DNA of 44,853 nt, taken from assembly GCF_003003885.1 (NCBI RefSeq), contig NZ_PVWN01000036.1, forward strand, positions 1 to 44,853, in the 5' to 3' direction. This document shows positions 34,362 to 44,412 of the stretch, in pieces (positions within the stretch are counted from its first letter, which is position 1; each line of letters opens with the position of its first letter). Both the position numbers and the translations under genes were made by a program. This DNA comes from Chlorogloea sp. CCALA 695 (lineage in GTDB: Bacteria; Cyanobacteriota; Cyanobacteriia; Cyanobacteriales; Chroococcidiopsidaceae). The notes beneath the pieces are model-generated. The model had not been told where the DNA came from and searched no databases. It worked only from the letters and a program-made list of their open reading frames with translations.

Positions 34362-35528
34362 TTGAATAATCGTCCTATTTATCTAGATTGTCACGCTACG
34401 ACACCTGTTGACGAACGAGTATTAGCGGCAATGCTACCATATTTCACAGAGTATTTTGGCAACCCATCAAGTAGCGGTCATATTTACGGGTGGGAAGCGG
34501 AAGCTGGGGTAAAACAGGCGAGAAATACCTTAGCTAATGCTATTGGCGCATCCCCCGAAGAAATAGTATTTACCAGTGGCGCAACTGAGGCTAACAATCT
34601 AGCAATTAAGGGGATAGCGGAAGCTTATTTTAGTAAAGGGCAGCACATCATTACTTTACAAACCGAGCATAGCGCCGTATTAGATCCTTGTAACTATCTG
34701 CGAGGACTTGGTTTTGAAATTACTATTTTGCCTGTCCAGTCAGACGGAATAATTGACTTAGAGGTTTTTCAGCAAGCTTTGCGTCCAGAAACAATTTTAG
34801 TATCTGTAATGGCTGCTAATAACGAAATTGGCGTTTTGCAACCTCTGGCAGAAATTGGGGCAATCTGTCGCGCTGCGGGGGTATTATTGCATACAGATGC
34901 GGCACAAGCGATCGGTAAAATTCCGCTAAATGTCGAGTCAATGAATATTGATTTGTTATCAATGACGGCGCATAAAGTCTATGGCGCTAAAGGTATAGGT
35001 GCTTTGTACGTCCGTCGGCGCAACCCTAGAGTGCAACTATCGGCACAGCTACACGGAGGCGGACACGAGCGTTCTAGGCGTTCGGGGACTTTGTACCCAC
35101 CGCAAATTGTCGGGTTTGCCAAGGCGGTAGAAATTGCTTTAACAGAGATGGAAAGCGAGACTAAACGTTTAACAGATTTACGCCAAAACTTATGGCGACA
35201 GCTTAGTAAGTTAGAAGGAATACATCTTAATGGTCATTCTACCCGAAGATTAGCAGGCAACCTTAATATTAGTGTAGAAGGTGTAGATGGAGCGGCTTTA
35301 TTATTGGGATTACAGCCAATAATGGCAGTTTCTTCGGGTGCTGCTTGTTCTAGTGCAACTATCGCCCCATCTCATGTTTTGACAGCCTTGGGACACTCCG
35401 AAAAACTAGCTTATGCCTCGGTGAGGTTGGGAATCGGGCGTTTTAATACTGCTACTGAAATTGATATAGTAGCCCAACACTTAACTGCTACTATTTCTAG
35501 TTTACGGCGGCAAACTTCCCGTGTTTAA
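34362..35528 (+). CDS. Cysteine desulfurase (IscS/NifS-like)
   Basis: A 388-residue class V PLP enzyme that removes sulfur from cysteine for Fe-S clusters and other sulfur carriers. IYLDCHATTPVD (6-17), TEHSAVLDPC, and the PLP-binding Lys205 in MTAHKVYGAKG are clear. The reactive Cys329 lies in SSGAACSSATIAPSHVL, the NifS/IscS loop. It starts at TTG 34362. IscS-like and NifS-like members cannot be separated here; no nif genes are adjacent. Confidence 0.92.
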   Translation: MNNRPIYLDCHATTPVDERVLAAMLPYFTEYFGNPSSSGHIYGWEAEAGVKQARNTLANAIGASPEEIVFTSGATEANNLAIKGIAEAYFSKGQHIITLQTEHSAVLDPCNYLRGLGFEITILPVQSDGIIDLEVFQQALRPETILVSVMAANNEIGVLQPLAEIGAICRAAGVLLHTDAAQAIGKIPLNVESMNIDLLSMTAHKVYGAKGIGALYVRRRNPRVQLSAQLHGGGHERSRRSGTLYPPQIVGFAKAVEIALTEMESETKRLTDLRQNLWRQLSKLEGIHLNGHSTRRLAGNLNISVEGVDGAALLLGLQPIMAVSSGAACSSATIAPSHVLTALGHSEKLAYASVRLGIGRFNTATEIDIVAQHLTATISSLRRQTSRV

Positions 35529-37293: not shown

Positions 37294-38253
37294 ATGAACA
37301 GTATAAATGCGATCGCCCAGTCATTCAATTTGTTTGAATTAATTAGGAATAACATTACTAACAACTTTATTCCTTTAGCTTTCTACTCTAGTTTGGCGGC
37401 AATTGTTTATTCATTATTAGGTATTTTTATTTGGCTGAAACCTTTAGAAGTAGCAAAGAAACCTTACTTAACTTGGGCGATTTTGTTACCTGTAATTTTT
37501 ATACCTTTGTGGCTAGGTTCTGGTGCATGGGCGATCGCAATTACGTTGATTTCTATCTATGGTTTTAAAGAATTTGCCCGTAGTACAGGACTTTACGAGC
37601 ATAAAGCTTACTGTATTGTTGTAGATATATTAATTGTGGGTTTGGGATTGGGTGCGGCTTTTAATCAATACGGGTTGTTTATGGCGTTGCCAATTTGGGG
37701 AATAGCCGGAATTACGACTTTACCTATACTTACCAATCAATCTAAAGGTGCGATTCAACACATTTCTTTAGCCGCGATTGGACTAATTTATTTTGGTTGG
37801 TTCATGGCACATATTAGCTTTTTAAGTCAGTCAAAATATGGTTTAGGTTATGTTTTATTTATGGTGTTAGCGACTCAATTTAACGACGCTTTAGCTTTTT
37901 TATGGGGTAAGTTATTCGGTAAAACAACTTGGACAGAGATATCGCCCAAAAAGACTGTAGAAGGCTCAATTTTAGCTTTAGTGTCGAGTATTGCGATCGC
38001 ATTTTTAAACTGGCAAATCGCTTTTCCTCATTTTCAATGGTGGTTAGTGGGAATAATTGGTTTAATAGTAGGTATTGGCGGTCAAATTGGCGACTTGGTA
38101 ATGAGTGCCTTTAAACGCGATTTGGGGATTAAAGACTTTGGCGCACTTTTACCCGGACATGGCGGAATTTTAGACAGAATTGATAGTTTGCTGTGGGTTG
38201 CGCCAGTATTTTTTCATACAGTCCGGTTTTTTCATGGAGGCTTTGGCTACTAA
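37294..38253 (+). CDS. CdsA-like phosphatidate cytidylyltransferase
   Basis: A 319-residue inner-membrane enzyme with about eight hydrophobic segments. The CDP-diglyceride synthase signature SAFKRDLGIKDFGALLPGHG with GGILDRID is at 271-297, and FNDALAFLWGK with GKTTWTEISPKKTVEG lies at 196-224. It should make a CDP-activated lipid from phosphatidate and CTP. A separate housekeeping cdsA is presumably elsewhere. It resembles E. coli YnbB, as I recall. It leads the cluster; the Rieske gene starts in its stop (TAATG). Confidence 0.93.
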   Translation: MNSINAIAQSFNLFELIRNNITNNFIPLAFYSSLAAIVYSLLGIFIWLKPLEVAKKPYLTWAILLPVIFIPLWLGSGAWAIAITLISIYGFKEFARSTGLYEHKAYCIVVDILIVGLGLGAAFNQYGLFMALPIWGIAGITTLPILTNQSKGAIQHISLAAIGLIYFGWFMAHISFLSQSKYGLGYVLFMVLATQFNDALAFLWGKLFGKTTWTEISPKKTVEGSILALVSSIAIAFLNWQIAFPHFQWWLVGIIGLIVGIGGQIGDLVMSAFKRDLGIKDFGALLPGHGGILDRIDSLLWVAPVFFHTVRFFHGGFGY

Positions 38254-39266
38254 TGCAAGATGTTCGTCAGTGCAGCCTCAATCTCAATTATTGGTGGACA
38301 GTTGCCCATCTTAAGAATTTTTCGCGTAGTGGTATTAAAGCGGCAAAAGTGGGAACGATAGAATTAGTTGTTGTCAAGGCTAATAGTAGCTACAGCGTCT
38401 TTGAAGATGCTTGTCCGCATAAACGGGTGCGCTTAAGTAAATTTGGTCGCCGCGTCGGAAATAAACTTGTTTGTAGTTATCACGGCTGGAAATTTGCCCC
38501 TAGCGGTCAGTGTACCGATATTCCGGGTATGGATATGCAAAAGCAATTTTGTCTTAAGTCCTATCCCGTTAAAGAGTATGGCGGCTGGTTGTGGGTGTTT
38601 TTAGGCGATGAAAAGTTAGTCGATTCTGTCCCGTTACCAAAAATTCCCCCAGTTCATAGTCAGCATTACCATCCGATTCCGATGCAAGGAGAGGTTGGCT
38701 GTCACTTTAGTTATATTACTGAAAATGCGACGGATTTATTTCATGCAGACTTGCACCAAAGCGCCCAACCTTGGGCAAATCCCAAATTATTGTCTTTAAA
38801 AAGTAACTTGCGGACTGTAAACGCCATCTATGAAGTAGATACCCCTAGACTACTTGCAGCGTTGATTTCTCATCCTGGTAAAAATCGCGTTCATGTAATG
38901 TACGAGTACCCTTACTTTCATTTATGGTCAGAAGATGGGGCATTTTATCTATTTGTAGTTTATGTTCCCACGGAGCCACAACGAACCTGGGTTTATTCAA
39001 CATTTTACTTTCGCCATGTGTGGGGAATGCCTTGGATTTTAAAATTGCTGCATCCAATTTTAGATAAAGGTACATTTCGCCAAGTGTTTGCCGAAGATAT
39101 CCGCGCAGTACAAGAAGAACAACGGGCTTATAACTTACATAGTCAAGACTTAAGCCGCGAAACTAATCCTGTTTCTTATGCAGTCCGCAAAGTTATCTTA
39201 AATCAAACTGACGGACAACAGCCTTTAACATTAGAACCTTTTGTTTATGAGGGTAAACCCGTATGA
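38253..39266 (+). CDS. Rieske non-heme iron oxygenase
   Basis: A 337-residue protein started at ATG 38253, which overlaps the cdsA stop by one base; the longer frame lies inside cdsA. The Rieske [2Fe-2S] ligands are Cys54-Pro-His56 and Cys74-x2-His77. A mononuclear iron site follows in ENATDLFHADLH: Asp161, His164, His168, with Asp282 in the EDIRAVQEEQ helix as the likely carboxylate ligand. It should hydroxylate, desaturate or demethylate a substrate with O2 and a reductase. Its place suggests a lipid substrate; that is inference. It ends in an ATGA overlap with the next gene. Confidence 0.92.
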   Translation: MQDVRQCSLNLNYWWTVAHLKNFSRSGIKAAKVGTIELVVVKANSSYSVFEDACPHKRVRLSKFGRRVGNKLVCSYHGWKFAPSGQCTDIPGMDMQKQFCLKSYPVKEYGGWLWVFLGDEKLVDSVPLPKIPPVHSQHYHPIPMQGEVGCHFSYITENATDLFHADLHQSAQPWANPKLLSLKSNLRTVNAIYEVDTPRLLAALISHPGKNRVHVMYEYPYFHLWSEDGAFYLFVVYVPTEPQRTWVYSTFYFRHVWGMPWILKLLHPILDKGTFRQVFAEDIRAVQEEQRAYNLHSQDLSRETNPVSYAVRKVILNQTDGQQPLTLEPFVYEGKPV

Positions 39267-39925
39267 AATTTGATTATGTCCCGGCGGTGGATTTGGGAGA
39301 TCCTTTAACTAAACGTTTGGGGAGTTATCCTCGCGTACCAGATTTAACTTGGGATACTTTGCGACTTTGTGGTAGTTGGCTTGCGGTTACTTTATTAAGG
39401 TTGCAATATCGGCTAACGGTAAAAGGGCAAATTCCTACTGGCGATCGCATTGCAATTGTAGCAAATCATCAATCCCACCTAGATACCATAACTTTACTGG
39501 CTGCAATACCTGCCAAAATCCGCCATCAAATTGTTGTATTAGCCGCCGCAGACTACTTTTTTGATAAAGTCAATCGGGCATTAGCAGCCTCATTATTGTG
39601 TCAAGCCGTAGCTTTTGATCGCCTCAGCGTCATGGAATTGCGACAGTGGCGAAATCGCCTCAAAGCTGCAACCTCTGGCTGGATTTTGTTTTATCCCAGT
39701 GGTAGCCGCAAAAGTTGCCAACTTCAACGCGGATTATTAAAACTATTGCTACAAGAAGGCTGGACAATTTTACCCGCACATTTGGCGGGAACTAAAGCTG
39801 CTTGGTCAATTGAAGCGCGGTGGTGGAAACCATTTCAGCATTTAGAAGTTACCTTCGGAGAACCTTACAAGGGTAACGATTTAGATTTGTTAGTTACTCA
39901 ACTTAAACAAGATTTATTTTTATGA
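39263..39925 (+). CDS. HX4D-type lysophospholipid acyltransferase-like protein
   Basis: A 220-residue acyltransferase of the PlsC class. The catalytic H-x4-D is His69-Asp74 in VANHQSHLDTITLL. The second motif, usually E-G-T-R, reads YPSGSRKS (144-151), so the acceptor-site Glu is replaced by Ser. A hydrophobic segment lies near 36-50. It probably acylates a lysolipid or glycerol-phosphate-like acceptor at the inner membrane. Start and stop overlap its neighbours by 4 bases each, marking a coupled gene set. Confidence 0.85.
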   Translation: MKFDYVPAVDLGDPLTKRLGSYPRVPDLTWDTLRLCGSWLAVTLLRLQYRLTVKGQIPTGDRIAIVANHQSHLDTITLLAAIPAKIRHQIVVLAAADYFFDKVNRALAASLLCQAVAFDRLSVMELRQWRNRLKAATSGWILFYPSGSRKSCQLQRGLLKLLLQEGWTILPAHLAGTKAAWSIEARWWKPFQHLEVTFGEPYKGNDLDLLVTQLKQDLFL

Positions 39926-40527
39926 CTCCTAAACTCGATTTGGGCTTGTATCAGGCTAAATACTCATTACGGGCTTTACTAAGGAAAATTCCTGGAATTG
40001 ATCGACTATCACCCAATTGGCTATCGTGTTCGACGATTATTCCTGGTTTAGCTACAGCTTATTGTTTATATCAAGGCTGGTGGATTGGGGCGGTAATTGC
40101 GATCGCATCTCGAATGTTACTTAGTACCTTAGATGGTTTAGTCGCCGAAGAATTTGATAAAACATCGCCATTGGGGGCTTATCTCAACCGTTTACCCGGA
40201 GAAATAACCGATTTACTAATTATTTTGGGTTTATTTCCTCACGGTCAACTTACATGGATTATTACCTTAATTATCCTCACAAGCTGGGTACAAACGTTTG
40301 GATTACTTGGTTTAACGGCGGGAAGCAAAACCCAATCGGTAGGGCCTTGCGGACAAACTGACCGACTGGCAATTATTGCGATTAGCTGCATTGTTGCGGC
40401 GTTTAATTTTCCCATCTGGCAATATGTGATTCCCGGAATGTGTATCGGTTGCGGATTAACTATCTTGCTAAGGATATTTCGATCTATCCGCGATATTACT
40501 AGCAACCAATCGCTTACTCCTGTTTGA
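39922..40527 (+). CDS. CDP-alcohol phosphatidyltransferase-like membrane protein
   Basis: A 201-residue membrane protein of the CDP-alcohol phosphatidyltransferase class, with about five hydrophobic helices. The family motif D-x2-D-G-x2-A-R-x8-G-x3-D-x3-D is only partly kept: Ser68 for the first Asp, Asp71-Gly72 kept, Ala75 kept, Glu76 for Arg, Gly85 kept, Asn89 and Gly93 for the third and fourth Asp. The GLLGLTAGSKTQSVGPCGQTDR segment resembles E. coli YnbA as I recall it. Either it is an unusual active enzyme or inactive. The gene overlaps the acyltransferase gene by 4 bases. Confidence 0.85.
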   Translation: MTPKLDLGLYQAKYSLRALLRKIPGIDRLSPNWLSCSTIIPGLATAYCLYQGWWIGAVIAIASRMLLSTLDGLVAEEFDKTSPLGAYLNRLPGEITDLLIILGLFPHGQLTWIITLIILTSWVQTFGLLGLTAGSKTQSVGPCGQTDRLAIIAISCIVAAFNFPIWQYVIPGMCIGCGLTILLRIFRSIRDITSNQSLTPV

Positions 40528-40564
40528 AGTAGTTTGTTAAATGCGAACAAGAGCTTAATTGAAT

Positions 40565-41113
40565 ATGGAAATTATTACCAAAAGATTTCTTTTACGAGAC
40601 TTTATTGAGGAAGATGAGCCAGCGTTTTTTGCCTATCGTGCCGATCTGCGCTATGCAGAGTTCTGTGCGCCGGAGGAAGTAACACTGAACTATACTCAAA
40701 AACTTCTGCACCTTTTTAATCAATGGGCAACGGAAAACCCTCGCTACAATTATCAGCTTGCTCTAGTTGATCGCCGCAATCAAGAACTAATTGGCTGTGG
40801 CGGACTGCGCCAGGAAGGTTACAGTGCAGATATAGCAGAACTAGGCATTGAGTTAGCATCTCAATTTTGGGGGCGTTATGCCTACGCTATTGAGGTAGCA
40901 AAAGCTTTGATTGAGTTTGGTTTTCACAATCTGGCTGTAAAGGAGATTCGAGGCGTTTCTGTCAGTGCAAATTTGCGAGTTACCCGTTTAGCACAACGGT
41001 ATGGATTTATTGCCATTGGCACTCGTCCTAGTCCTAATTGGATGAGCGATCGCTCGTGGAGTCAAATCGAATGGCAGCTTACGCGCGAATCTTGGGAGAA
41101 TCTAGCCATCTAA
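40565..41113 (+). CDS. GNAT-family N-acetyltransferase (RimJ/RimL-like)
   Basis: A 182-residue GNAT protein, started at ATG 40565; a TTG two codons upstream is possible. ITKRFLLRDFIEEDEPAFF is the typical opening, ELGIELASQFWGRYAYAIEVAKALIEFGF holds the acetyl-CoA site, and VSVSANLRVTRLAQRYGF is the C-terminal block. It would acetylate an amino group of a protein, peptide or small molecule. It lies within the lipid-type cluster but has flanking gaps of 37 and 72 bases, unlike the tightly coupled genes, and may be unrelated. Confidence 0.85.
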   Translation: MEIITKRFLLRDFIEEDEPAFFAYRADLRYAEFCAPEEVTLNYTQKLLHLFNQWATENPRYNYQLALVDRRNQELIGCGGLRQEGYSADIAELGIELASQFWGRYAYAIEVAKALIEFGFHNLAVKEIRGVSVSANLRVTRLAQRYGFIAIGTRPSPNWMSDRSWSQIEWQLTRESWENLAI

Positions 41114-41185
41114 CGCTTTGGGTAACTTACTATAAAGCGCGATCGCGCGGATCAAAGATGACCATTTCCTAGTTATAAAAATTTA

Positions 41186-42238
41186 ATGATTCCCGGAATT
41201 ACTTACCTAAACTGGGCAGGACTTGCACCTTTAACTGTGAAAAGCTATATGCACAGCCTGTTCGCCCCCGAACTTATGGGCAATATTCTTTTACCAAACT
41301 GGGTTAAACGAGTCGATAAGCTGAGAGAAGACGTTGCTTTATGGTTGGGTTGTCACAGCGAACAAGTTGCCTTTGTACCTTCTACTAGCATGGCACTAAT
41401 GATCGCAGCCCATAGTCTAACTTGGCAAAACGGCGACACCATCCTTTATCCAGCTAATGATTTTCCCGCTAATGTTTTACCTTGGCAGAGTTTAGACCGC
41501 TTTGGAGTTGAAGCGCAAGCCGTGCAAGACTGGGCGCAACCTTGGGATGAATCTGTAAAAATGGTTAGCATTTCCACCGTTGACTTTACAACTGGGATAG
41601 AACAACCTTGGCAGCAAGTTGTACAGCAAGCAAACGCTAAAGGTATTTGGACTTGCGTAGATGCAATTCAATCGGCGGGAGTTAAGCCGAGTTGGTGTCC
41701 TGAGATTGATTTTTGGTGTGCGGGAACGCAAAAATGGTTAGCTTCTGGTTTGGGATTAGCTTTATTGGTGCTTAGTCCTAGAGTTTTAAGCCGATTATCT
41801 GCACCTTTTCCTACTTGGCTAGGATTAAATCAACCGCCTTTAGTTCATTCGGGAATGAGTAAAACTGCGCGTGGTTGGGAATTAAGCTGGTCTTCTCCCC
41901 AGGCGATCGCCCGATTTGAAACTAATCTTAAATACTTTCAATCTTCTGGTTGGGAAAATATAACTCAAGGTGTCAAACAACGCCGCGATTATTTGCACGA
42001 ACGCTTGTTAGAAATGGGTTGGAAAGTTGTATCTTGTCCCGAAAGATGGTCTGGTCTAGTTTGTTTCGATCCAGGCTTAGGACAAGCGGAGTTAATTGTT
42101 AAAGATGGCTATAAAAAACGCATTATTACCGCCCAACGTGGCGAATATGTCCGTTTATCACCGCATATTTTTAACTCAATGAATGGTTTAGCTAAAACTG
42201 TTGATTGGCTATGGAAATGCAAGCTTAAATACCGCTAA
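41186..42238 (+). CDS. Class V aminotransferase-fold PLP enzyme
   Basis: A 350-residue PLP enzyme of the class V (cysteine desulfurase/isopenicillin epimerase-like) fold. Asp159 and Gln162 in CVDAIQSAG contact PLP, and Lys183 in AGTQKWLASGLG is the Schiff base. YLNWAGLAPL at the start and SWSSPQAIARFETNL later are family features. The substrate is unknown; the nearest functional names would be aminotransferase, epimerase or lyase. Position suggests it acts on an amino head group or an amino-acid-derived part of the lipid; inference only. Confidence 0.87.
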   Translation: MIPGITYLNWAGLAPLTVKSYMHSLFAPELMGNILLPNWVKRVDKLREDVALWLGCHSEQVAFVPSTSMALMIAAHSLTWQNGDTILYPANDFPANVLPWQSLDRFGVEAQAVQDWAQPWDESVKMVSISTVDFTTGIEQPWQQVVQQANAKGIWTCVDAIQSAGVKPSWCPEIDFWCAGTQKWLASGLGLALLVLSPRVLSRLSAPFPTWLGLNQPPLVHSGMSKTARGWELSWSSPQAIARFETNLKYFQSSGWENITQGVKQRRDYLHERLLEMGWKVVSCPERWSGLVCFDPGLGQAELIVKDGYKKRIITAQRGEYVRLSPHIFNSMNGLAKTVDWLWKCKLKYR

Positions 42239-42254
42239 ATCACCCCTAAAAGCT

Positions 42255-43010
42255 ATGAAATATCAAATTTTACGTTTTTTACTCAAAACTGTTGGTAAAC
42301 TCAGCAAAGGTATTAGCTTAGGCTGGAGAACAGGCTTTGATTCTGGCGTAATGCTGGAGTACGTCTATGAAAATAAGCCCCAAGGAATTACGCCATTAGG
42401 GGTATTAATTGACCGGATCTACCTATCCAATAAAGTTTGGGATGGAGTGCGATCGCGCCGTCAAATGTTAGTAAAACAACTTAACAATGCAATTTCTAAT
42501 TACAACCATCCTCAAGTTTTTGATTTAGCGGCGGGTGTCGGTTCTTATTTGTTTTTATTACCTTTTGACAAAGCCACAATTATTGCTGGCGATTACAATG
42601 ATGAAGCTGTTACCCAAGGCAAAGCAAAAGCTACTACTCAAGGGCGTAGCGATATTGTTTTTAAACATAATGATGCCTTTAATTTATCTGCTTTTGCCAG
42701 CCAAAAAGCTAATATCTTAGTTTCCTCTGGATTCTTTGACATTTTGACAGAAGACGAGCAAATTAAAACAGTTTTAAATAATGGTTCATCTATCACTCAA
42801 CCCGGCGCACGATGGGTTTTTACTATTGAAGAAAATCATCCAGATTTGAAACTATTGCAAGAAAGTTTAGTCGATCTAAATCAAAAACCTTGGAAATTAG
42901 TATTACGTCCAGCGCAACAATTAATCGATTGGGCAAAACCTTACGGATGGGAACTAGAAACCCTCCAACGCAACGATTATTTTGCTGTAGGAACAATGGT
43001 AAAAAGATGA
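42255..43010 (+). CDS. Class I SAM-dependent methyltransferase, YnbC C-terminal-like
   Basis: A 251-residue methyltransferase started at ATG 42255; the longer frame overlaps the previous gene. SAM motif I VFDLAAGVGSYL is at 88-99, with Asp113 in AGDYND. The N-terminal block GWRTGFDSGVMLEYVYEN and ITPLGVLIDRIYLSN (22-59) closely resembles the C-terminal half of YnbC-type bifunctional hydrolase/methyltransferases as I recall them. It may methylate a lipid head group. The hydrolase gene follows with an ATGA overlap. Confidence 0.85.
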   Translation: MKYQILRFLLKTVGKLSKGISLGWRTGFDSGVMLEYVYENKPQGITPLGVLIDRIYLSNKVWDGVRSRRQMLVKQLNNAISNYNHPQVFDLAAGVGSYLFLLPFDKATIIAGDYNDEAVTQGKAKATTQGRSDIVFKHNDAFNLSAFASQKANILVSSGFFDILTEDEQIKTVLNNGSSITQPGARWVFTIEENHPDLKLLQESLVDLNQKPWKLVLRPAQQLIDWAKPYGWELETLQRNDYFAVGTMVKR

Positions 43011-43768
43011 AATTAAGCAATCAACCATTTTTATTAGAATCTACAGGCGATCGCGCTTGCTTACTTTTGCATGGCTTAGGTGGCGGTGTATATGAGATGC
43101 AGCTATTAGGAGAATATTTATACAAACGCGGTTTAACTGTTCAAGGTATAAATTACCCAGGTCATGCGGAACTTATGCCTAAAATGCCTGCTTCTAAGTG
43201 GCGAGAATGGTACGAACACATAGAAGAAACTTATCAAAAGCTAAGTTTAAAATATGCCAGTGTTTCAATAGTAGGATTTTCGACAGGTTGCCCTTTAGCA
43301 TTGTATTTAGCAGCTACAAATCCTGTAGAAAACTTGATTTTACTTAGTCCTTTTTTAGCAATCAAACATGAGTGGTATTACTTACTAAAACCCGAAAGTT
43401 ATCTAGCCTCAGTAGGTAGATTAATTAATGATGTACCTCGATTGAAATTGCCAATTAGTGATAAAGTTATGCGAAAAGCTGCCGAAGAAGCTGCTTTTTT
43501 TAAAACCTTTAATTTACCTACAGTTAAAAGCGCGCTGGAATTGATTAATACAATCAAACCATTGTTACCGCAAATAGATGTACCAACATTAATTATTCAA
43601 TCGCTAAAAGATACCGTAGTCGATCCTAATGGTGCAAGAATAATTTATCAGCAACTTGGCTCTAAAGAAAAAAAACTTTGTTGGTTAGAAAAATCTGATC
43701 ATATTATTTTGTTAGATGTAGAGCGCGATCGCGTAACTCAAGAAATTAACGACTTTCTCTTGCCATGA
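43007..43768 (+). CDS. Alpha/beta hydrolase (monoacylglycerol lipase-like)
   Basis: A 253-residue alpha/beta hydrolase started at ATG 43007, 4 bases inside the methyltransferase end. LLHGLGGGVYEMQLLGEYL is the oxyanion-hole region (21-39), Ser92 in GFSTG the nucleophile, Asp202 in QSLKDTVVD the acid and His232 in KSDHIILLD the base. It should hydrolyse an ester or amide, plausibly lysolipid or monoacylglycerol. Together with the methyltransferase it looks like YnbC split into two genes in reversed order. The SDR follows with a 4-base overlap. Confidence 0.87.
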   Translation: MKLSNQPFLLESTGDRACLLLHGLGGGVYEMQLLGEYLYKRGLTVQGINYPGHAELMPKMPASKWREWYEHIEETYQKLSLKYASVSIVGFSTGCPLALYLAATNPVENLILLSPFLAIKHEWYYLLKPESYLASVGRLINDVPRLKLPISDKVMRKAAEEAAFFKTFNLPTVKSALELINTIKPLLPQIDVPTLIIQSLKDTVVDPNGARIIYQQLGSKEKKLCWLEKSDHIILLDVERDRVTQEINDFLLP

Positions 43769-44412
43769 AAACCGCTTGGGTGACAGGTGCTACAGGGTTT
43801 TGGGGGCGTAATGTAGTAATGAGTTTATTACGGCTAGATTGGCGTGTAGTGGCGCTAACGCGATCTCCACCAGAAGATTTGATAGTATGGGCGCGATCGC
43901 AAAACAAAGAATTAGTATGGCAACATTGCGATTTGCGACTTTTACAATTGCCAGAATTAGAGACACCATCAGCATTATTTCACTGCGCGGCAGTTTTTGA
44001 CACTTTAGAAACAATGATGCAAGTAAATGTCATAGCGCCTATTCAGCTAATTGAAAGTGTTTTACCACAAATGCAAGCGGCTGGTGAAGGGAGAATCGGT
44101 ATATTTCTGGGTCAAAATGGGCGAATTGGATTGCCAAATTTGGGTCATTTTAGCGCTACCCAGGGCGCTATGTGGACTTGGGCGGAATCTCAATCTCGCA
44201 CATTAGCACCTTTAGGGAATGTTTCTCTAAGCTTAGTATTTCCGCCTCGTGCGCCTTCAGATTTGCAAGGAAAACTCGCAGAAAAATTAACCAAGCCACC
44301 AAAATTATCAACTCGTCCAACGGCTGACGATTTAGTTAAAAACGTATTATTAGGTCATCGCTGCGTAGGTCGTCGTCCTGTACTTGCAGGGATTTCAACT
44401 TTGTTGTGGTAG
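43765..44412 (+). CDS. Degenerate short-chain dehydrogenase/reductase-like protein
   Basis: A 215-residue Rossmann protein. The nucleotide loop TGATGFWG is at 7-14, and FHCAAVFD and VNVIAPIQLIE match SDR strands. The usual catalytic Y-x3-K reads Phe129-S-A-T-Gln133, and the catalytic Ser is missing as well (GQNGRIG region). The dehydrogenase chemistry is therefore probably lost. It may bind NAD(P) and play a structural or sensory role. It closes the tightly overlapping gene set. Confidence 0.85.
   Translation: MKTAWVTGATGFWGRNVVMSLLRLDWRVVALTRSPPEDLIVWARSQNKELVWQHCDLRLLQLPELETPSALFHCAAVFDTLETMMQVNVIAPIQLIESVLPQMQAAGEGRIGIFLGQNGRIGLPNLGHFSATQGAMWTWAESQSRTLAPLGNVSLSLVFPPRAPSDLQGKLAEKLTKPPKLSTRPTADDLVKNVLLGHRCVGRRPVLAGISTLLW

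Follow-up and report, generated by a model that had tools for sequence, protein, structure and literature searches.

The contig NZ_PVWN01000036.1 of Chlorogloea sp. CCALA 695 (44,853 nucleotides, the whole of which is called the window here) is one of the 168 contigs of a 5.23 Mb genome. At positions 37294-44412 it carries nine intact open reading frames (ORFs), all on the + strand, among whose products are homologues of the Escherichia coli proteins YnbA and YnbB and of the methyltransferase part of YnbC. The original prediction, made from the letters alone, had proposed this cluster as an uncharacterised lipid pathway. The nine same-strand genes were confirmed, and the junctions read as had been claimed, with TAATG at 38251-38255 and ATGA at 39263-39266, 39922-39925, 43007-43010 and 43765-43768. 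The gene labels agreed with the Pfam matches for all nine genes, as listed below.

37294..38253, + strand: predicted YnbB-type CDP-diglyceride synthase (Pfam CTP_transf_1, 1.3e-57)
38253..39266, + strand: Rieske non-haem iron oxygenase (Pfam Rieske, 2.6e-17)
39263..39925, + strand: PlsC-like acyltransferase (Pfam Acyltransferase, 6.2e-10)
39922..40527, + strand: YnbA-type protein with a predicted CDP-alcohol-transferase fold (Pfam CDP-OH_P_transf, 5.6e-9)
40565..41113, + strand: GNAT acetyltransferase, inserted and outside the conserved set (Pfam Acetyltransf_3, 4e-21)
41186..42238, + strand: class-V pyridoxal-phosphate (PLP)-fold enzyme (Pfam Aminotran_5, 2e-23)
42255..43010, + strand: class-I S-adenosylmethionine methyltransferase of the PF12147/YnbC family (Pfam Methyltransf_20, 4.9e-42)
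43007..43768, + strand: alpha/beta hydrolase with GFSTG (Pfam Hydrolase_4, 5.5e-21)
43765..44412, + strand: Rossmann protein resembling short-chain dehydrogenases/reductases (SDR) (Pfam adh_short, 1.5e-11)

The order CdsA-Rieske-acyltransferase-YnbA-PLP-methyltransferase-hydrolase-SDR was the same in three genus-mates (L008-L010) at 86-96% identity, and with the window's own genome four genomes of the genus carry these eight genes in this order. The GNAT gene, which had been counted as a member of the cluster, was missing from the operon in all three genus-mates; it is an insertion, and the conserved unit is the other eight genes. Two near relatives of the cluster came from Chroococcus sp. CMT-3BRIN-NPC107 (L009 and L018, one place) and Aliterella atlantica CENA595 (L010 and L019, one place). 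In L008 and L009 there is no gap between the YnbA-type and PLP genes, which touch or share one base, and in L010 about 120 bases separate them. All eight genes are under purifying selection, with ratios of non-synonymous to synonymous substitution rates (dN/dS) of 0.045-0.136 in 16 pairwise comparisons with two relatives, calculated with a purpose-written Nei-Gojobori script. Over the stretch there were 12 promoter-like sites against 18.7 +/- 5.3 in shuffled sequences, giving no signal above the shuffles, and terminator-like sites numbered 9, with 7.8 +/- 2.9 in the shuffles. On another contig of the same genome (L002 143-291), a partial second copy of the 3' end of the SDR gene (89% over 149 bases) is joined, in frame as read by eye, to a short start that presumably resembles a PIN-type protein.

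The match to E. coli ynbABC that had been proposed held for three of the proteins. The window proteins showed 35% identity to YnbB over 242 residues, 30% to YnbA over 110 residues and 32% to the methyltransferase part of YnbC, and tblastn found the YnbA, YnbB and YnbC-methyltransferase homologues (E 4e-9, 7e-28 and 4e-36) in one same-strand cluster. The match failed for the hydrolase, for which no homology to the hydrolase domain of YnbC was detectable (62 residues, E 0.29). The YnbC-type hydrolase was likewise not seen in several other ynb-type loci, and many others did carry such domains.

The wider family was collected by scanning contigs with a methyltransferase alignment, which confirmed 157 relatives, and the best 80 of the 157 were kept. 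Counts were made on 78 loci (L020-L097) after excluding L018 and L019 as genus-mates; the methyltransferase was the bait, truncated contigs were retained, and neighbours were counted at blastp E <= 1e-4 within 6 kb. Neighbours of the YnbA type were found at 61 loci and of the YnbB type at 60; 57 had both, and 28 had both together with an acyltransferase. Acyltransferases and YnbD-type neighbours each occurred at 31. Looser single-linkage clustering of the same 78 loci gave 61 for YnbA, 58 for YnbB, 46 for the acyltransferase and 32 for YnbD. The gene set recurs in relatives, and the genes were not scattered without co-occurrence, the outcome that had been named as fatal to the idea. With 31 of the 78 ynb-type loci carrying one, the acyltransferase does not stand as a cyanobacterial addition. 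Loci of Microcystis, Pseudanabaena, Mastigocoleus and Acaryochloris carried the plain ynbA-ynbB-acyltransferase-methyltransferase set. YnbD is not a constant part of the ynb module, as the count of 31 loci shows, and no YnbD match was found in L018-L021. Matches to the PLP protein lay within 6 kb at only three loci (L020, L021, L065), and to the Rieske protein at one (L020).

A gene joining MFS, acyltransferase and AMP-ligase parts, presumably of the Aas/LplT type, lay within about 4 kb of ynb genes in L046 (13747-17178, the only one examined with Pfam), L051 and L069, and a weaker match lay in L011. The acyltransferase/ligase part also matched L111 (47%) and L011 (25%) and, over a shorter stretch at about 26%, L020/L110, L109 and L056. 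The MFS part matched L044, and the rest of the loci in that search gave no match. In a plasmid collection, relatives of the methyltransferase were found on 30 of 72,556 records, many annotated as a hydrolase/methyltransferase fusion and some chromosome-sized. Carriage by viruses was considered and dropped, as tblastn found no relatives among the 78 pattern stretches in viral_contigs.

The most striking result, which goes beyond the original prediction, is that none of the 65 YnbA-type ORFs compared fits the defining motif of the enzyme family to which Pfam matches them. For CDP-alcohol phosphatidyltransferases, the available part of PMC8633023 gives this motif as DxxDGxxAR(x8)GxxxDxxxD. It occurred in 0/65 ORFs, E. 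coli K-12 YnbA (L012 5622-6227) included; L008-L010 were excluded from this set, and the window and later loci were listed separately. The first motif Asp was Asn in 62, Ser in two and Gly in one, and the second was Asp in all 65. The third site was Asn in 65/65, the last was Asp in 61, Gly in three and Pro in one, and every ORF had an extra Asp four residues after the last motif site. The window's motif region, STLDGLVAEEFDKTSPLGAYLNRLPGEITD, likewise departs from the motif, and the last Asp is replaced by Gly or Pro in the YnbA-type proteins of the window clade and L065. The canonical motif is present in the other PF01066 protein of the genome. The AlphaFold model of the window's YnbA-type protein (pLDDT 91.7) had PIP synthases as its closest solved folds, and the first 29 of the best 50 Foldseek matches listed were structures of CDP-alcohol transferases, with E as low as 9.5e-5 and TMq reaching 0.70. 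Hence the name CDP-alcohol transferase does not hold at face value, since the family motif is absent though the predicted fold matches. The YnbA-type protein of G015 (L004 386-1474), a cyanobacterium mentioned again below, carries an additional C-terminal stretch that resembles flavodoxin on visual inspection only.

The YnbB-type protein is a predicted CDP-diglyceride synthase; it contains SPKKTVEG, and PGHGGILDRID is present in its translation. A second PF01148 (CdsA-type) match lies on another contig, to which the YnbB-type enzyme showed 45% identity over only 128 C-terminal residues, and a PgsA-type gene also lies elsewhere in the genome. Because other CdsA- and PgsA-type genes are present elsewhere, a side pathway is the most likely role of the cluster.

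The acyltransferase carries the expected HxxxxD as NHQSHLD (NHxSHxD). In its motif III, YPSGSR stands where PEG[ST]R is expected, as in 6/6 rows from the genus and L020 (four genomes); YPSGSR was also present in the window, G202 and G177, and PEG[ST]R in 31/31 other acyltransferase rows. The methyltransferase model was of high confidence (pLDDT 95.2), and a search for its substrate from structure was abandoned because the best 50 matches listed were class-I methyltransferase-type folds with many substrates and no single lead. The hydrolase carries GFSTG.

In the Rieske protein the cluster site CxH-x17-CxxH is present as CPHKRVRLSKFGRRVGNKLVCSYH, and CxH...CxxH was found in 20/20 proteins compared. 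The usual iron site of Rieske oxygenases is DxxHxxxxH, with four residues between the His. The corresponding stretch here, ENATDLFHADLH, has two His three residues apart (HxxxH); DxxHxxxH was found in seven cluster and 10 cyanobacterial Rieske proteins, and DxxHxxxxH in three distant ones. No reductase gene was found among the nine genes of the cluster. Relatives at 28-35% occurred in 39/146 cyanobacterial genomes at E <= 1e-20, the own genome included, where a second Rieske relative lies on another contig. The best solved match, to SxtT, which we take to be a natural-product oxygenase, reached only 2.2e-15, and phthalate and dicamba oxygenases scored nearly as well. Assignment as the sterol demethylase SdmA was rejected because the NCBIfam score was 137.5 bits and the cut-off is 600.

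The best solved relative of the PLP protein was the C-S lyase 1elq (3.2e-35). In cysteine desulfurases and C-S lyases a Lys binds PLP, an Arg binds the carboxylate and a His stacks on PLP. Lys183 and Arg323 were invariant in the alignment and aligned to the Lys and Arg of 1elq; Arg318 was invariant too, but has no Arg opposite in 1elq. Phe93 stands opposite the His of EHP in 1elq. A cysteine desulfurase was considered and rejected although C-S lyases and desulfurases are the nearest solved relatives, since Phe takes the place of the stacking His. A second class-V aminotransferase gene (34362-35528, Pfam 2.7e-82) lies on the same strand about 1.8 kb upstream of the cluster. The SDR-like protein lacks the catalytic Ser, Tyr and Lys in seven clade rows, with F-S-A-T/S-Q replacing YxxxK, and the label SDR could not be upheld at face value.

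Within its family of 19 genomes the cluster methyltransferase was found (E <= 1e-5) in 4/6 genomes of the genus, the own genome included, and in 0/13 others; the two genus genomes that gave no match are only 65-74% complete. Among the 146 genomes drawn from the phylum, two (the own genome and G015) had a relative at E <= 1e-10. The proposal that the oxygenase, PLP enzyme and SDR mark a general cyanobacterial version is thus contradicted by the restriction of the methyltransferase to this genus within the family, and the other holders found were a few genomes of the class of Vampirovibrio chlorellavorus, presumably Vampirovibrionia. V. chlorellavorus itself (L020, L110 and G190, one place) has seven genes in the window's order, CdsA-Rieske-acyltransferase-YnbA-PLP-methyltransferase-SDR, at 51-67% identity. 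PLP relatives of at least 53% were found in four of 240 class genomes (G177, G190, G202, G219), and three further genomes had weaker ones; the methyltransferase had relatives in 12/240, including all four PLP holders. Rieske relatives of 47-54% were found in G177, G190 and G219, not in G202, and 23 other class genomes had only 26-35% matches. The cluster of G177 is split, with CdsA-Rieske-acyltransferase on one contig and acyltransferase-YnbA-PLP-methyltransferase-SDR, directly followed by an Aas-type gene, on another. G202 has six of the seven genes, all but Rieske. G219 has CdsA-Rieske and PLP-methyltransferase-SDR on two short contigs; its acyltransferase and YnbA-type genes did not turn up.

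The methyltransferase tree covered 47 rows selected among those extracted and had a midpoint root; in it the four genus rows and three class rows grouped together with 100/100 support, and the branch of this clade is 2.55 changes per column long. The cluster rows also formed a 100/100 clade with the G190 and G177 copies in the Rieske tree, which has 18 rows and a midpoint root and is poorly resolved (3/15 inner branches starred). A foreign origin could not be read from composition, as G+C was 40.8% in the cluster and 40.3% in the window, and of 55 HIP1 sites in the window 12 fall inside the cluster. Horizontal transfer is therefore argued only from the patchy distribution and the trees, and the simplest reading would be that the cluster moved from one of the two lineages, the genus or the V. 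chlorellavorus class, to the other, or that both acquired it from a common donor.

A metagenome-assembled genome (MAG) of Chlamydiae (L065) carries CdsA-acyltransferase-methyltransferase-YnbA followed by one ORF that fuses PLP and SDR, and this fusion argues that the two proteins act together. Two sets of more distant PLP relatives were set aside: those of 27-30% (L098-L101, L113-L115), with no other query gene in the 8-18 kb around them, and those on 83 plasmid records, all below 60% (24-28% among the 15 matches listed).

These results are best explained if an uncharacterised phospholipid module is shared horizontally and, in this version, has acquired a new function and enzymes that tailor the head group. 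Across phyla, the ynb genes occur together with an acyltransferase, which points to a lipid as their product; for the window's cluster, the unusual active sites of several enzymes make an undescribed lipid probable. We infer the chemical steps, their order and the phospholipid nature of the product as follows. The acyltransferase would complete a phosphatidate-like acceptor, the YnbB-type enzyme would activate it with CTP, and the YnbA-type protein would transfer the activated lipid to an unusual acceptor, after which the methyltransferase would methylate the transfer product. An amino-acid-like head group may be formed or altered by the PLP enzyme together with its SDR-like partner and then oxidised by the Rieske oxygenase, and the hydrolase may trim acyl chains. 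On balance, we favour with some confidence the view that the eight genes work together by this route as a single operon-like unit, and that this unit is a derived, horizontally shared form of a lipid module found widely in bacteria. More speculative, and doubtful as a whole, is a larger proposal: that the YnbA-type proteins are a distinct CDP-alcohol-transferase-fold branch with a relocated metal/acceptor site, that YnbA, YnbB, the acyltransferase and the PF12147 protein form an undescribed multi-phylum lipid pathway, and that the Aliterella/Vampirovibrio-class version was re-tooled by concerted active-site changes and by the PLP, SDR-like and Rieske proteins to make an unknown oxidised, methylated amino-lipid.

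Several points weigh against the favoured route. With the CDP-alcohol-transferase motif departed from, the central transfer may not occur as proposed, and with the altered motif III of the acyltransferase and the missing catalytic residues of the SDR-like protein the named reactions may not happen. The hydrolase was not seen in the clusters of the V. chlorellavorus class and Rieske was not seen in G202, which argues that neither is essential. L065 has an ordinary acyltransferase motif and ordinary SDR residues, so a partnership of PLP and SDR does not require the changes. According to the accessible part of PMC6362211, YnbB was unable to complement a cdsA deletion in E. coli. Finally, Rieske relatives are common without the cluster, and the Rieske and PLP proteins could serve a soluble metabolite.

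Taken further, this last point becomes a rival in which the product is a soluble or secreted specialised metabolite, such as an acylated or lipid-anchored amino-acid derivative, and the role of the lipid genes is confined to providing or attaching a tail. Proteins of the Rieske, PLP and methyltransferase kinds often serve as tailoring enzymes, which would suit such a product, as would the patchy distribution and the weak match to SxtT. However, the Pfam matches of the nine genes include no synthase, ligase or exporter, and the YnbA/YnbB core is of lipid type across phyla; we regard this explanation as unlikely. Equally improbable in our judgement is lipid remodelling or repair resembling a Lands cycle, in which the hydrolase and acyltransferase swap chains or repair oxidised lipids and YnbA/YnbB recycles the head group. 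The Aas-type genes near several ynb-type loci, a patatin-like gene in L092 and the frequent YnbC-type hydrolase domains would fit it. Yet remodelling has no need for a methyltransferase (which, as the bait, is always present), leaves the PLP enzyme without a role, and is hard to square with the four-gene Microcystis set, which has no hydrolase on its 8.1 kb contig.

A backup route for a glycolipid derived from CDP-diacylglycerol (MPIase-like), as proposed for E. coli YnbB, draws on the finding, in the part of PMC6362211 at hand, that YnbB overproduction raises MPIase in E. coli. It offers no role for the YnbA-type, acyltransferase and methyltransferase genes that accompany the YnbB types, and there is no sugar gene among the nine, which makes it very unlikely here. 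A decaying or partly inactive copy of the ynb module, kept by chance, might be suspected from the YnbA-type, acyltransferase and SDR-like catalytic residues that differ from their families. Against it stand the eight intact frames under purifying selection and the replacing residues, most of which the genus and the V. chlorellavorus class have in common; this reading is already largely contradicted, and we consider it highly improbable.

The description of the pathway as uncharacterised was supported, as no pathway was assigned to ynbABCD among the matches listed in the openly licensed literature, seen in part, and one may exist. In the sections available, PMC7413402 ascribed no function to YnbD in 2020 and reported that it did not rescue strains that presumably lack the phosphatidylglycerophosphate (PGP) or undecaprenyl-pyrophosphate phosphatases; PMC7018664, likewise in part, reads YnbB as a glycolipid backup enzyme. 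In extracts of PMC2435150, a ynbC transposon insertion made the localisation of an intron protein more diffuse in E. coli, with polar effects possible, and this phenotype points to no product. The ynb genes reside in the best-studied bacterium and yet had no assigned pathway in the portions of the literature examined. The Asn in place of two motif Asp in YnbA yields a specific, testable prediction on the central enzyme, and the added enzymes of the derived version should leave a traceable chemical mark on its product.

Compared with known systems, E. coli K-12 ynbABCD (NC_000913.3 1477621-1482201) has, like the window, the YnbA, YnbB and YnbC-methyltransferase homologues in one same-strand cluster. 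The gene order differs, and the window adds the acyltransferase, Rieske, PLP and SDR-like genes. In E. coli a different hydrolase is fused to the methyltransferase, whereas the window hydrolase is a separate gene, and YnbD has a dual-specificity phosphatase domain with a weak PAP2 match, whereas there is no phosphatase among the window's nine products. The locus of Microcystis novacekii (L030) has YnbA, YnbB, the acyltransferase and the PF12147 methyltransferase in a row, as in the window's core, but without a Rieske, PLP or SDR match; it is distant in the methyltransferase tree, and its acyltransferase has YPEGSR. The Chlamydiae MAG differs from the window in the fused PLP and SDR, an SDR part that keeps the catalytic residues with YxxxK, an acyltransferase with FPEGTR and the absence of a Rieske match; it shares CdsA, the acyltransferase, the methyltransferase, the YnbA-type protein, PLP/SDR and the loss of the last YnbA motif Asp (Pro). 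V. chlorellavorus (L020) has no hydrolase between methyltransferase and SDR and has Asn at the first YnbA motif site where the window has Ser, and it shares with the window YPSGSR, the Asn and Gly at the third and last YnbA motif sites and the SDR losses.

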